IMG/VR virus record: IMGVR_UViG_3300028045_000068
Coordinates: 1-29,225 of that record
From: a virus
Length of the DNA stretch: 29,225 bases
Reading direction: 5' to 3' (one strand)
This document shows, one piece after another, positions 688-5,082 of this stretch. The notes beneath the pieces are model-generated. The model was given only the letters and a program-made list of their open reading frames with translations. It did no database searches and was not told the origin of the DNA. How positions within the stretch are numbered: the first letter of the stretch is position 1; every line of letters begins with the position of its first letter. Position numbers and translations under genes: made by a program.

Positions 688-898
688 CGAGCGCCCCACG
701 ATTGGGCGCCGGGCGTACCTCGTCCGCGCTGCTGGCGGGACCTGGCGGGAGTGTGCCGAGCGGGCCGGGGCAGCCTCCGAGGTCGCGGCACGCGCGACTG
801 CTTGGGGGTGGGCCAACACGCACAGCAAGACGTGGCCTCCCGAGGTCGACGCCGCCGGCAATCCCGCTGCACGTCAGCAAGTAACAGGTGACGCATGA
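650..898 (+). CDS. small helix-turn-helix protein
   Basis: This 82-residue protein contains a region around residues 28-55 (TWRECAERAG followed by SEVAARATAWGWA) that has the spacing of a helix-turn-helix as in sigma-region-4-like or small phage DNA-binding proteins. I infer a DNA-binding regulator or packaging accessory, but no partner is visible. The ATG at 650 is chosen because a TANNNT box ends 7 bases upstream, giving a leaderless mRNA. In-frame alternatives are the ATG at 608 and the GTG at 602, which would add an N-terminal RCEVC motif but would place the promoter inside the gene. The end overlaps the next start (ATGA). Confidence 0.55.
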   Translation: MALPTFPPLPPPDERPTIGRRAYLVRAAGGTWRECAERAGAASEVAARATAWGWANTHSKTWPPEVDAAGNPAARQQVTGDA

Positions 899-1776
899 CG
901 ACCCCGGACGCAACGCCCCCCGCCGCTGAGTGGGTCGCACTCGACGGGCTCGCCCCGTGGGACCGCAACGCTCGGCAGCACAGCGACGACAGCACCCGGA
1001 AGCTCGCCGCGGGTATCCGCCGGTTCGGCTTCCTGGTGCCGCTCACCGCGTGGCGGTCGGAGTCGCGCATCGCCGCGGGGCACGGGCGCCGGCTGGCGAT
1101 GCAGGCGCTGCTCCGTGAGGACCCCAGCTTCGTGCCGCGCAACGCGCCCCCCGGGGTCGGGCCTGACATGGTCCCTGTCATGTTCGAGGAGTTCGCGTCA
1201 GAGGCGCAGTTCAAGGCCTACGCGCTCTCGGACAACCGGCAGGCGAAGAACGCCGAGGACGACGACGAGGCGGTCGCCCGTCTGCTCCACGAACTGGACA
1301 TGGAGGGGATGGACTTCGACGGGATGGGGTTCGGCGACGACGAGGTGTCCACGCTGCTCGAGGACCTCGCATCCGGCGACGGCGAGGGGGCCGGGGACGG
1401 TGACGGGTCAGGCGACGACCTCTACACGAAGAAGATCAAGGCGCCCATCTACGAGCCCAAGATGGACCACCCGCCGCCGCTCTCGGATCTGATCGACAGC
1501 ACCAAGACGGCGGAGCTCCAGGCGCAGATCGACGAGGCCGACATCCCGGCGGACGTCGCGGCGTTCCTTCGCCGGGCGGCCGACCGCCACACGTCGTTCC
1601 ACTTCCGCAACATCGCCGAGTTCTACTGCCATGCCTCCCCGGAGGTCCAGGACCTGATGGAGCGGTCGGGGCTCGTCATTATCGACTTCGACAAGGCGGT
1701 GGAGTACGGATTCGTCCGCATGTCCAAGCGGCTGGCAGAACTGGCAGGGATGGAGCAAGATCATGCCGGTGCCTGA
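895..1776 (+). CDS. ParB-like nuclease-fold protein, DNA-modification associated
   Basis: This is a 293-residue protein with a ParB/Srx-type N-terminal domain (about residues 12-125): IRRFGFLVPL at 41-50, the GHGRR motif at 63-67, and LSDNRQAKN at 111-119. An acidic Gly/Asp linker follows (160-175). The conserved-looking C-terminal domain (about 176-285) begins YTKKIKAPIYEPK and includes HTSFHFRNIAEFY and VIIDFDKAVEYG; I recall it as a recurring phage module next to DNA-modifying glycosyltransferases. ParB-like domains in such neighbourhoods are thought to bind or target DNA for modification. The next gene, a glycosyltransferase, overlaps by 14 bases, so the two are probably co-translated. 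A chromosome-partition role is unlikely, since no ParA is present. Confidence 0.8.
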   Translation: MTTPDATPPAAEWVALDGLAPWDRNARQHSDDSTRKLAAGIRRFGFLVPLTAWRSESRIAAGHGRRLAMQALLREDPSFVPRNAPPGVGPDMVPVMFEEFASEAQFKAYALSDNRQAKNAEDDDEAVARLLHELDMEGMDFDGMGFGDDEVSTLLEDLASGDGEGAGDGDGSGDDLYTKKIKAPIYEPKMDHPPPLSDLIDSTKTAELQAQIDEADIPADVAAFLRRAADRHTSFHFRNIAEFYCHASPEVQDLMERSGLVIIDFDKAVEYGFVRMSKRLAELAGMEQDHAGA

Positions 1777-2641
1777 CGATTTCTGCATCTTCATCCTGAC
1801 CCACGGGCGCCCCGACCGGGTCCACACATACCGCACGCTGATGGACTCGGGGTACACCGGCAAGGTGTTCATCGTCATCGACGACGAGGACAAGACCGAG
1901 CCGTTGTATCGAGAGAGGTACGGCGACCTGGTGCTCCAGTTTAGCAAGGTGGAGATAGCCAAGACGTTCGACGAGGCCGACAACTTCGACGACAGGCGGA
2001 CGATCGTGTACGCGCGGAATGCGTGTTTCACGCTCGCGGAGCGCGTCGGCTGTCGCAGGTTCGTGCAGTTTGATGACGACTACATGGCCTTCGAGTTCAC
2101 TGTAGACCGCCGGTTCGAGTGGGCGACCATCGCGGTGCGGACGACCATGGATGAGGTGGTGGGGGCGCTGCTCGACTTCCACGAGGTCACCCCTGCGCTG
2201 ACGGTCGCGATGGCACAGGGGGGCGACTTCATCGGGGGATCAGGCAACGTCGACAGGGGCGTGAGCCTCCGGCGGAAGGCCATGAACTCGTTCGTGTGCT
2301 CGCTCGACCGCCCTTTCCAGTTCGTCGGGCGAGTGAATGAGGACGTGAACACCTACACGACCCGCAGCCGGCTTGGGGATCTGTTCCTCACGGTGATGCA
2401 GCTCAAACTCGTGCAGAAACAGACCCAGAGCAACGCTGGAGGCATGACGGACGTGTACCTGGATGCGGGAACCTACCTAAAAACAGCGTATACCCCGATG
2501 TTCTGCCCTTCCGGCGTGTCGATTGGCGAAATGGGCGACCACAGGTCCGATAACTACCGGATCCACCACGCGGTCAACTGGCACCGCATCGCGCCGAAGA
2601 TCCTGCGGGAGTCGCACAAGCGGGGGCACGGTGGCGAATGA
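1763..2641 (+). CDS. TET-associated-type DNA glycosyltransferase (TAGT family)
   Basis: This 292-residue GT-A-like glycosyltransferase is predicted to add a sugar to modified bases in phage DNA. The N-terminal nucleotide-binding strand carries FILTHGRPDR (10-19), followed by VFIVIDDED (35-43) and VYARNACF (82-89). FVQFDDDYM (100-108) supplies the acidic DxD-type metal and nucleotide-sugar motif. GRVNEDVNTYT (189-199) supplies the acidic residues expected for catalysis. The C-terminal GVSIGEMG and HHAVNWHRIAPKIL segments fit the family. The family is known from phages in which TET/JBP dioxygenases produce 5-hydroxymethylpyrimidines; no dioxygenase or methyltransferase is visible here. The gene has more A/T-rich codons than its neighbours, for example near 1935-1960 and 2475-2500. 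It overlaps the ParB-like gene by 14 bases. Confidence 0.8.
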   Translation: MPVPDDFCIFILTHGRPDRVHTYRTLMDSGYTGKVFIVIDDEDKTEPLYRERYGDLVLQFSKVEIAKTFDEADNFDDRRTIVYARNACFTLAERVGCRRFVQFDDDYMAFEFTVDRRFEWATIAVRTTMDEVVGALLDFHEVTPALTVAMAQGGDFIGGSGNVDRGVSLRRKAMNSFVCSLDRPFQFVGRVNEDVNTYTTRSRLGDLFLTVMQLKLVQKQTQSNAGGMTDVYLDAGTYLKTAYTPMFCPSGVSIGEMGDHRSDNYRIHHAVNWHRIAPKILRESHKRGHGGE

Positions 2642-2855
2642 GCGCACCTACCTGCTCTGCTCGCCCCCCGGGGAGGCCCCGGTGTGCGCGCCCCTCGGGT
2701 GGCTTGTGACGTTCGAGGCCGATGCGGTCGTCCTGTCTCGAGTCGGGGAGCAGGTAGTGGTTAGCCGCGCTGGTGTTTCGCATCCGGCCGGCGTGGGGCA
2801 CGCTGTAGAAGCGTTCGCGCGCAGCCTCCACCGACTCCTGAACGGACCCCGCTGA
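2631..2855 (+). CDS. hypothetical protein, 74 residues
   Basis: The GTG start overlaps the glycosyltransferase end and has GGGGG a few bases upstream. I recognise no family. The sequence opens with a short hydrophobic stretch (TYLLCSPPGE) and contains alternating hydrophobic residues (WLVTFEADAVVLSRVGEQVVVSR) that suggest a small beta-sheet fold. Its stop overlaps the small terminase start (TGATG), so it is part of the same operon. Its position between the modification genes and the terminase gives no clear function. Confidence 0.6.
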   Translation: MANERTYLLCSPPGEAPVCAPLGWLVTFEADAVVLSRVGEQVVVSRAGVSHPAGVGHAVEAFARSLHRLLNGPR

Positions 2856-3466
2856 TGCCCCGCAAGCCCCGCCGAGAGCAGTACGCCGGCCAGCCCCTCG
2901 CCAGGCTCGCCGACGCCATCGACCGCGCCATCACCAAGGGCGCGCTGTCGGGTGACGCGCAGATGCTCGCCGCGCTCCAGCGCGAGGTCCGCGCGGTGTC
3001 GCTCGGGGTCTGCGAGCCGCCGCCGCCGCCGCGGGTGTTCCGGGGCAAGAAACAGACGGTGTTCGAGTTGGTGCTCCAGGGGCTCATGCCGCAGGAGATC
3101 GTCGAGCGGACCAAGTACAGCCGGGCCACCGTCTACCGCCTGCGCAAGGCCGAGGACTTCCAGACGGCGCTCGACCAGGCGCGGGCCCACCGGGTCGTCG
3201 CGTCCCAGGAGGCCGCGGCCGACCTGCTCCCGCTCGCCATCCAGCGCCTCCGGGGCATCCTGCTGGACCCGGCGGCGTCGCATCGTGACGTGCTGTCCGC
3301 GTTCCGCGAGGTCGCTGACCGCGCCGGGCTGCCGAAGACCACGCGGGCGGAGGTGGTCGTCGAGGGCGCCGTCGGCGACGAGAAGCGGACCGACGACGAA
3401 CTGCTCGCGGAGCTCGAGGCGCTGGGTCCGCAGCTTGAGGTGCTCGAGGGCGGAAAAGCCGGGTGA
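2855..3466 (+). CDS. terminase small subunit-like protein
   Basis: This 203-residue protein directly precedes the large terminase and overlaps it by 4 bases (GTGA). The N-terminal portion has a basic start and helices. Around residues 66-100 there is a helix-turn-helix-like segment (TVFELVLQGLMPQEIVERT then YSRATVYRLRKAEDF) of the kind used by small terminases for recognising the packaging site. The C-terminal half is helical and charged, ending in an acidic tail typical of oligomerising small subunits. The helix-turn-helix and the gene position are observed; the packaging role is inferred, and a general DNA-binding regulator is the alternative. Confidence 0.7.
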   Translation: MPRKPRREQYAGQPLARLADAIDRAITKGALSGDAQMLAALQREVRAVSLGVCEPPPPPRVFRGKKQTVFELVLQGLMPQEIVERTKYSRATVYRLRKAEDFQTALDQARAHRVVASQEAAADLLPLAIQRLRGILLDPAASHRDVLSAFREVADRAGLPKTTRAEVVVEGAVGDEKRTDDELLAELEALGPQLEVLEGGKAG

Positions 3467-5082
3467 GCGCAGCCAAGCGAGCCCCCGACGAGGCGGACGC
3501 AGCGGTCGCCCGTGCTCGCGCGCTGCGTGGCGAGCTCGTGCGGCGAGCCCGAGTCAAGGAGTGCCGACTCCTTCGGGAGCTCTCCCTGCGGCGCCACGTC
3601 CGCGGGGCCTTCGCGGCGTTCGTGCGTCTGATGTGGGAAGCGGTCGAGCCGGGGACCCCGCTCGTCTGGACCTGGCACCTGGACGTCCTGTGCTGGGAGC
3701 TCCAACAGCAGATGAACGGGAGCGAGGCTCACCGGCGCCTGCTCATCATGATCCCGCCCGGGATGATGAAGTCGCTCCTCACGTCCGTCTTCGCCCCAGC
3801 GTGGGAGTGGCTGTTCACGCCCGAGCGGCGCAAGCTGTTCCTGGCCAACGACGACGACCTCGTGGTCCGCGACAGCCGGCGCACCCGCGAGGTGATGACC
3901 TCCCCCGAGTACCAGGGCCTGTCGGATGAGGCCTCCCGCCGCCGCGGTGACCCGGCGTGGCGCCTGACCCACGACCAGAACGAGAAGACCAACTTCGAGA
4001 ACACCCGGCGCGGGTTCCGGCAGTGCCGGAGCATCCGGTCGAAGATCACGGGCAAGCGCGCCGACGACATCAACATGGACGACCTCCTCGACGTGAAGGA
4101 GGTGATCATGGGGTCGTCGGAGACCATCGCCCGGCGCTGCGCCGAGGTCGGGCGCATCGTGGACCAGGTGCTCCCCACCCGCGTCAACGACCTGGCGACC
4201 GCCCGGTGGACGCTCATCATGCAGCGGTTGCACGTCAACGACCCCGCGGGCCGCGCGCTCGCCGAGGGCGGCTGGCGCGTCGTCTGCCTGCCGATGGCCT
4301 ACGACCCGGAGCACGAGCAAGCCTATGAGCACGACCCCCGCACCGAGCCCGGGGAACTGCTGTTCCCGGTGAAGTTCCCGGCCAAGGAGGTCGCGATCCT
4401 GCGCAAGAAACTGGGGCTGGCGCAGTCGGCCGCGCAGCTCGACCAGACGCCGGGGCAGACGAGCGGGGGCCGCATCCGGCGCGAGTGGTTCCGCGAGCGG
4501 TACACCTGCCGCCCCGAGGACATCGCGGCGACGGCAGACGAGGTCTGGGTGTCGGCGGACGCAGCCAAGAAGGGTCGCGAGACGAACGACTTCCACGCCA
4601 TCCACGTCTGGGCCCGCAAGGGCGCCAAGCGGTACGTCCTGGGCCGCGCGACCGAGCGCATGGGCTACCCCGAGTTCGAGCAGTGCATGGACGGCCTCAT
4701 CGAGCGGTGGAAGCCGTTCATCACCCGCGGCGGCGGGGTCTACATCGAGGACACCGCGAACGGCTCGACCTACCTGCAGGTGCGCCGGCCGCGGTTCCCG
4801 TTCCTGGTCGACTTCTCGCCGACGCGCGACACGCCGGGCAAGGACAAGTCCAAGGGGGCTCGCGCCGTGTACCTCGAGCGGGCCGCCGAGTCCCAGGCCA
4901 TCGTGCTGCCCGATCCGAGCATCGCCCCGTGGGTCGAGGAGTTGCTGGCGTGCTGGTGCGCCTTCCCCGAGGGGGCGCACGACGACGACGTGGACGCGGC
5001 GTCGCAGATCGTGATGCGGTGGGCCGTCGCGGACGGCGCCGCCGGGGGTTCCGGCCTCGACTTCTTCGGCTCGCTGTTCTGA
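3463..5082 (+). CDS. terL: terminase large subunit (packaging ATPase/nuclease)
   Basis: This 539-residue motor protein translocates DNA into the prohead and cuts it. The ATPase half carries the Walker A-like LIMIPPGMMKS (94-104; lysine at 103), a Walker B-like DDINMDDLLD (201-210) and the coupling motif MQRLHVNDPAG (253-263). The nuclease half has an RNase H-like fold with acidic motifs VWVSADAAKKG (Asp366), VYIEDTANG (Glu429, Asp430) and HDDDVDAAS (506-514). QLDQTPGQTSGG before the nuclease domain is characteristic of the family. The GTG start overlaps the preceding stop. The Walker A lacks the usual GKS/GKT glycine, a variation I associate with PPGxxKS-type terminases. Assignment is secure. 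Confidence 0.95.
   Translation: MSAAKRAPDEADAAVARARALRGELVRRARVKECRLLRELSLRRHVRGAFAAFVRLMWEAVEPGTPLVWTWHLDVLCWELQQQMNGSEAHRRLLIMIPPGMMKSLLTSVFAPAWEWLFTPERRKLFLANDDDLVVRDSRRTREVMTSPEYQGLSDEASRRRGDPAWRLTHDQNEKTNFENTRRGFRQCRSIRSKITGKRADDINMDDLLDVKEVIMGSSETIARRCAEVGRIVDQVLPTRVNDLATARWTLIMQRLHVNDPAGRALAEGGWRVVCLPMAYDPEHEQAYEHDPRTEPGELLFPVKFPAKEVAILRKKLGLAQSAAQLDQTPGQTSGGRIRREWFRERYTCRPEDIAATADEVWVSADAAKKGRETNDFHAIHVWARKGAKRYVLGRATERMGYPEFEQCMDGLIERWKPFITRGGGVYIEDTANGSTYLQVRRPRFPFLVDFSPTRDTPGKDKSKGARAVYLERAAESQAIVLPDPSIAPWVEELLACWCAFPEGAHDDDVDAASQIVMRWAVADGAAGGSGLDFFGSLF

Follow-up and report, generated by a model that had tools for sequence, protein, structure and literature searches.

Glycosylation of phage DNA alters sensitivity to restriction, CRISPR and type IV enzymes. 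One family of glycosyltransferases found in phages, TAGT (TET-associated glycosyltransferases), reportedly received its name in the work of Iyer et al. 2013. In phages T2 and T6, TAGT glucosylates DNA by extending 5-hydroxymethylcytosine that is already glucosylated (PMC13216743; PMC13390438). Solitary TAGTs, found without an alpha- or beta-glucosyltransferase, are present in 288 of 753 phages, and novel transferases have been proposed (PMC13216743). Two further groups of described loci resemble the one analysed here through a ParB-like domain. The ParB-methyltransferase fusions of phrog_498 carry such a domain at their N-terminus and in several phages occupy the same slot upstream of the terminase, but have a methyltransferase domain in place of a distinctive C-terminal module (hereafter the C-module) and a separate TAGT. 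Bclasvirinae mycobacteriophages such as Nigel and CRB2 (cf. Rosebush) share the order of ParB-like gene, base-modifying enzyme, TerS and TerL. Their cassettes differ by performing 7-deazaguanine base exchange rather than glycosylation, by a more distant ParB domain and by having no C-module. In Rosebush, which has DpdA and preQ0 genes like CRB2, about 28% of G is replaced by dPreQ0, and the DNA is resistant to a number of restriction enzymes (PMC6884629).

The locus studied here is part of a complete IMG/VR entry of 29,225 bases with a GC content of 71.6%, the whole of which we refer to as the window. Short tests showed no identical ends, and the window is probably a fragment of the phage genome. 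On the plus strand, a gene for a ParB-like protein (895-1776) and a TAGT gene (1763-2641) share 14 nt and are followed by genes for TerS (2855-3466; phrog_2538, 3.1e-8), TerL (3463-5082; phrog_38, 2.3e-70; PF17289, 3.9e-11), portal, head protease, major capsid and tail sheath. This gene set indicates a contractile-tailed phage. An earlier note on this DNA had described a coupled, overlapping pair directly upstream of the terminase, and both points are confirmed. The note had also seen no methyltransferase or dioxygenase in the window, in agreement with our finding of neither in the family lists of the remaining window open reading frames (for PHROG, the best 25 of 52 families).

The window TAGT has Pfam family PF20691 and the GT-A fold in common with the beta-glucosyl-HMC-alpha-glucosyltransferase of T2/T6, and the T-even members act on DNA. 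Unlike the T2/T6 system, complete relatives have no detected TET/JBP or hydroxymethylcytosine pathway, and their TAGT is paired with a C-module protein. With a member of the present TAGT branch as query, tblastn found no T-even phage even at E<=1. The genes described here probably belong to the solitary TAGTs of PMC13216743, which does not mention ParB; the C-module pairing and the terminase context are additions to that picture. In the literature other than Iyer et al. 2013, we found no published report of the C-module or of its obligate pairing with TAGT. Searches for TAGT, ParB and phage together returned nothing relevant, and we found neither nucleoside data for any phage with the pair nor biochemistry for this TAGT branch.

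We suggest, with reasonable though far from full confidence, that these two genes make up a self-contained cassette for DNA glycosylation. Its C-module and ParB-like loader would serve a TAGT whose acceptor does not depend on a phage-made 5-hydroxymethylpyrimidine. TAGT would transfer a sugar from a host nucleotide-sugar to a base in phage DNA. The helical C-module would bind TAGT as an obligate partner and tether it to the ParB-like domain, which might load the complex on phage DNA in the manner of a targeting or sliding clamp. Modification would occur late, before or during packaging, and the sugar could protect phage DNA from nucleases.

The glycosyltransferase and the ParB-like domain

The 292-residue product of 1763-2641 matches PF20691 at 5.9e-32 (111.7 bits against a cut-off of 27.5) across profile positions 3-205 of 205, and phrog_842 at 2.7e-67. 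The predicted model adopts a GT-A fold with Z up to 13.4. The profile search thus bears out the earlier assignment of the second gene to TAGT-type GT-A glycosyltransferases. Among 41 TAGT homologues, the DDDY motif (window residues 104-107; 2072-2083, plus strand) is invariant, as are GGD and HH...W residues, and NEDV is near-invariant. The window TAGT retains DDDY, NEDV and HH...W, is intact and is expected to be active. DDDY is the presumed metal/nucleotide-sugar site, a metal role that would follow from the GT-A fold.

The 293-residue product of 895-1776 matches the ParB-like PHROG 620 at 3.9e-37 over residues 14-279. The single sequence gave no Pfam match, and the profile of its family matches solved ParB/Noc structures at 2.6e-11. 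The predicted model superposes on KorB, ParB and Noc with Z of 10-13. The N-terminal CTPase/sulfiredoxin-like domain (residues ~12-119; 928-1251, plus strand) aligns with the CTP/CDP-bound ParB structures 7bnr/7bnk at an rmsd of 1.8 over 93 residues (VIA-align). The GxxR box of the ParB N-domain is present as AAGHGRR. Likeness to a CTPase clamp is suggested by this fold similarity, and clamp-like targeting would be in keeping with a CTP-binding ParB fold. The KorB structural alignment ends at residue 168, and the rest of the protein is the C-module (residues 177-283; 1423-1743, plus strand). The proposed combination of a ParB/Srx-fold domain with a distinct C-terminal module therefore stands, given the phrog_620 match, the fold match and the invariant residues described below. 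We rejected a function in partition: related loci can lack the ParB-like domain, no ParA is among the listed families of the window open reading frames, and the constant partner is a glycosyltransferase.

The C-module as the constant partner of TAGT

We surveyed 204 sequences by profile, drawn from TAGT searches, independent searches with the C-module alone, and annotated phage and E. coli records. A TAGT is encoded within 1.5 kb on the same strand for 212 of the 214 C-module occurrences. One of the two exceptions lies at a contig end and the other has its TAGT 3.2 kb downstream. A ParB domain directly upstream of the C-module was found in only 160 of the 214 occurrences. The remaining 54 comprise five at contig ends, one distance artefact and about 48 with no adjacent ParB domain. 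Around a quarter of C-modules are thus without one, a point that counts against the proposed cassette. Vibrio phage pv27 (191 kb) encodes the C-module as a separate gene of 139 residues, which precedes TAGT. Taken together, these observations identify the C-module as the constant partner of TAGT and the ParB domain as optional, a distinction that the earlier note had missed. The loci were picked by similarity, so the figures cover this TAGT branch rather than the whole family, and the counts refer to loci, of which many are related; a few contigs appear twice. The genes overlap in nearly all C-module/TAGT pairs. Even a very divergent Porphyromonas phage TAGT (26% identity) is paired, with its C-module detected at E=1.7e-14. 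Distances among TAGTs correlate more strongly with those of the C-module (rho 0.73) than with those of the ParB domain (rho 0.60). Standalone modules have examples adjoining replication genes (DUF1376 primosomal, DnaB-like, NinB). In a group with standalone C-modules, one locus (L024:8068-8835) has a SAM methyltransferase-like gene (Methyltransf_23, 9.8e-6) between C-module and TAGT, and similar gaps of 700-745 bp occur at L023, L031, L034, L038, L039 and L078.

Across 40 aligned sequences, 22 residues are invariant, and all of them lie in the C-module, between residues 177 and 270. The AlphaFold model predicts an all-helical bundle after an extended PxYEP segment. Sequence comparison with solved structures gave chance-like matches alone (armadillo designs, RNase E), and a structure look-up, with the module predicted as part of the whole protein, gave Z of 3 or less for residues 190-262. 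The invariant polar residues R231, H232, Y244, Q252, E256, D264 and E270 could belong to an enzyme that creates the acceptor on the base, with TAGT then adding the sugar, so that two proteins would carry out two chemical steps. The lack of any other constant partner would fit such a role. However, the module is small (about 100 residues) and all-helical with no recognised enzyme fold, and its conservation is compatible with a binding interface too. We regard a catalytic C-module as very improbable and favour a tethering function.

Distribution among viruses and prophages

The pair is found in many unrelated phages, including bacterial and archaeal viruses, and in E. coli prophages. Complete relatives with the pair include Lactobacillus c5 and jlb1, haloarchaeal HHTV-2 and Nocardia NTR1. 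In E. coli, Rac-type prophages carry an intact ParB/C-module gene and TAGT ahead of the terminase at the ynaK locus, whereas the MG1655 Rac prophage retains only a ynaK remnant of the 88-residue class and has no TAGT match. Some of the pair is matched in 1,572 of 5,426 complete E. coli genomes, and at least 80% of it in 885. If the proposed function is correct, an undescribed DNA sugar modification may thus occur in common, laboratory-accessible material, with up to 885 of the 5,426 complete genomes carrying most of the pair. In E. coli PF9285, RefSeq lists ynaK (L090:6001-6792) as a C-terminally incomplete pseudogene of 258 nt. The locus actually holds an open frame of 263 residues with ParB domain and C-module, and its annotation as a pseudogene seems to derive from the truncated K-12 YnaK.

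Phages of Lactobacillus delbrueckii differ in how much of the cassette they retain. Phage c5 has both genes, LL-Ku has neither the ParB gene nor the first 68 residues of TAGT, the copy in Ld17 is reduced, and Ld25A joins a ParB-annotated start to the last 83 TAGT residues. Such losses fit an accessory protective trait under host-dependent selection. The differing cassette deletions (L088:90-938 and Ld25A 285-512) also make these phages a natural series with intact and broken copies.

The search for acceptor-making enzymes

The earlier note had raised a TET/JBP dioxygenase or cytosine-modifying partner elsewhere in the genome, an expectation that our searches leave unsupported. The Tet_JBP profile had no match in the window or in two sets of related records (47 and a further 35), some of which are fragments; this search had no positive control. 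Cyanophage PSS2 and 289 alphaproteobacterial genomes were tried as controls, with no match over the cut-off. A divergent oxygenase could hence be missed, and the Tet_JBP negatives by themselves are weak evidence. Searches with working controls matched the thymidylate-synthase family in one of 30 records (the T4-like pv27), C5-methylases in two of 30 and N6/N4-methylases in three records. The complete genomes of c5, HHTV-2, jlb1 and NTR1 have no match to Tet_JBP, the thymidylate-synthase family including hydroxymethylases, C5-methylases or N6/N4-methylases.

These four genomes speak against a conventional TAGT system, in which phage genes outside the 29-kb record, either TET/JBP with a methylase or a hydroxymethylase, would make a 5-hydroxymethylpyrimidine acceptor. 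A conventional system would match the described family context of T2/T6 TAGT acting on glucosyl-hmC (PMC13216743; PMC13390438), and further points in its favour are the likely fragmentary window, the thymidylate-synthase-family gene of the pair-bearing pv27 and the room that the Tet_JBP search leaves for a hidden oxygenase. We nevertheless consider it quite unlikely. In the self-contained cassette, the acceptor would instead be a canonical base or a base already in the host. If this is true, TAGTs function in these phages without the TET enzyme for which the family is named. A stronger version can be put forward only tentatively, and we would sooner expect it to fail than to hold: that a C-module adaptor, usually ParB-linked, and TAGT glycosylate a canonical DNA base directly, with no hydroxymethyl precursor, across bacterial and archaeal viruses and E. 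coli prophages. No GT-A enzyme is known to us that glycosylates an unmodified base directly.

The terminase neighbourhood and the choice of acceptor

The position ahead of the terminase recurs across the survey. A sufficiently long flank was available at 91 non-redundant loci. There, the median start of the first large open reading frame 3' of TAGT is 533 bp downstream, and in 75 of the 91 this frame falls in clusters containing annotated terminases. Of the 75, 63 group with the TerLs of HHTV-2, NTR1, jlb1, phage005a and the window, five with the c5 TerL and seven with the SPF_0923 small subunit. A PHROG scan of the downstream frames likewise gave terminases as 22 of the best 25 families by matches. 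The pair is present in phages of unrelated terminase families.

Proximity to virion genes might indicate that TAGT glycosylates a virion or packaging protein such as terminase or capsid, with the ParB/C-module protein as acceptor or adaptor. The nearest solved structures of the TAGT model include many protein glycosyltransferases (GalNAc-T2, COLGALT1), and the RefSeq name of the E. coli homologue is 'GREB1-related', GREB1 itself having been reported to transfer O-GlcNAc to proteins. Yet no single protein acceptor is obvious across unrelated terminase families, the T-even TAGT acts on DNA, and the ParB domain of the partner is common to DNA-modifying enzymes in the same genomic slot. Protein glycosylation thus appears unlikely. 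Glycosylation of phage DNA, as the earlier note had predicted, is supported as the likeliest function, with DNA as the acceptor suggested by the company of the ParB domain and by the T-even TAGT.

The same ParB domain beside other DNA-modifying enzymes

A ParB-domain profile built from the partners of TAGTs matches phage ParB-methyltransferase fusions at their N-terminus (1e-35 to 1e-41). It also matches ParB-like proteins preceding DpdA or PAPS-reductase genes (1e-10 to 1e-15). Profile search found no C-module in either group. The fusions lie just upstream of the terminase in P8625, Javan422 and ctOK67, and two kb before TerL in Gva_AB1. In CRB2, the ParB-like gene is followed by DpdA-QueC-QueD-QueE-FolE, TerS and TerL. 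In Nigel, it is followed by a DpdA-like gene before the terminase; this gene (gp2) is named from PHROGs, and Pfam TGT gave no match. In Devonte, it precedes a PAPS reductase, again in the slot ahead of the terminase. The recurrence of the same ParB domain and terminase slot with DNA-modifying enzymes favours DNA as the acceptor of TAGT, and the shared neighbourhoods suggest that the domain tends to mark such enzymes.

More generally, the ParB-like gene may serve to flag DNA-modifying enzymes, and the layout of ParB domain, modifier and terminase would provide a simple guide to them among 'hypothetical' genes beside terminases. Four actinobacteriophage stretches (L205:1-4129, L213:1-4474, L214:1-4953 and L216:1-4959) begin with a ParB-like gene, after which come base-modification genes (DpdA-like, QueC/D/E, FolE, PAPS reductase), and three of the four include the terminase. 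In Microbacterium phage Nicole72 (L216:670-2751) and Gordonia phage NHagos (L215:630-2473), the ParB-like gene is separated from terminase or queuosine-type genes by hypothetical genes, whose products are candidate DNA-modifying enzymes.
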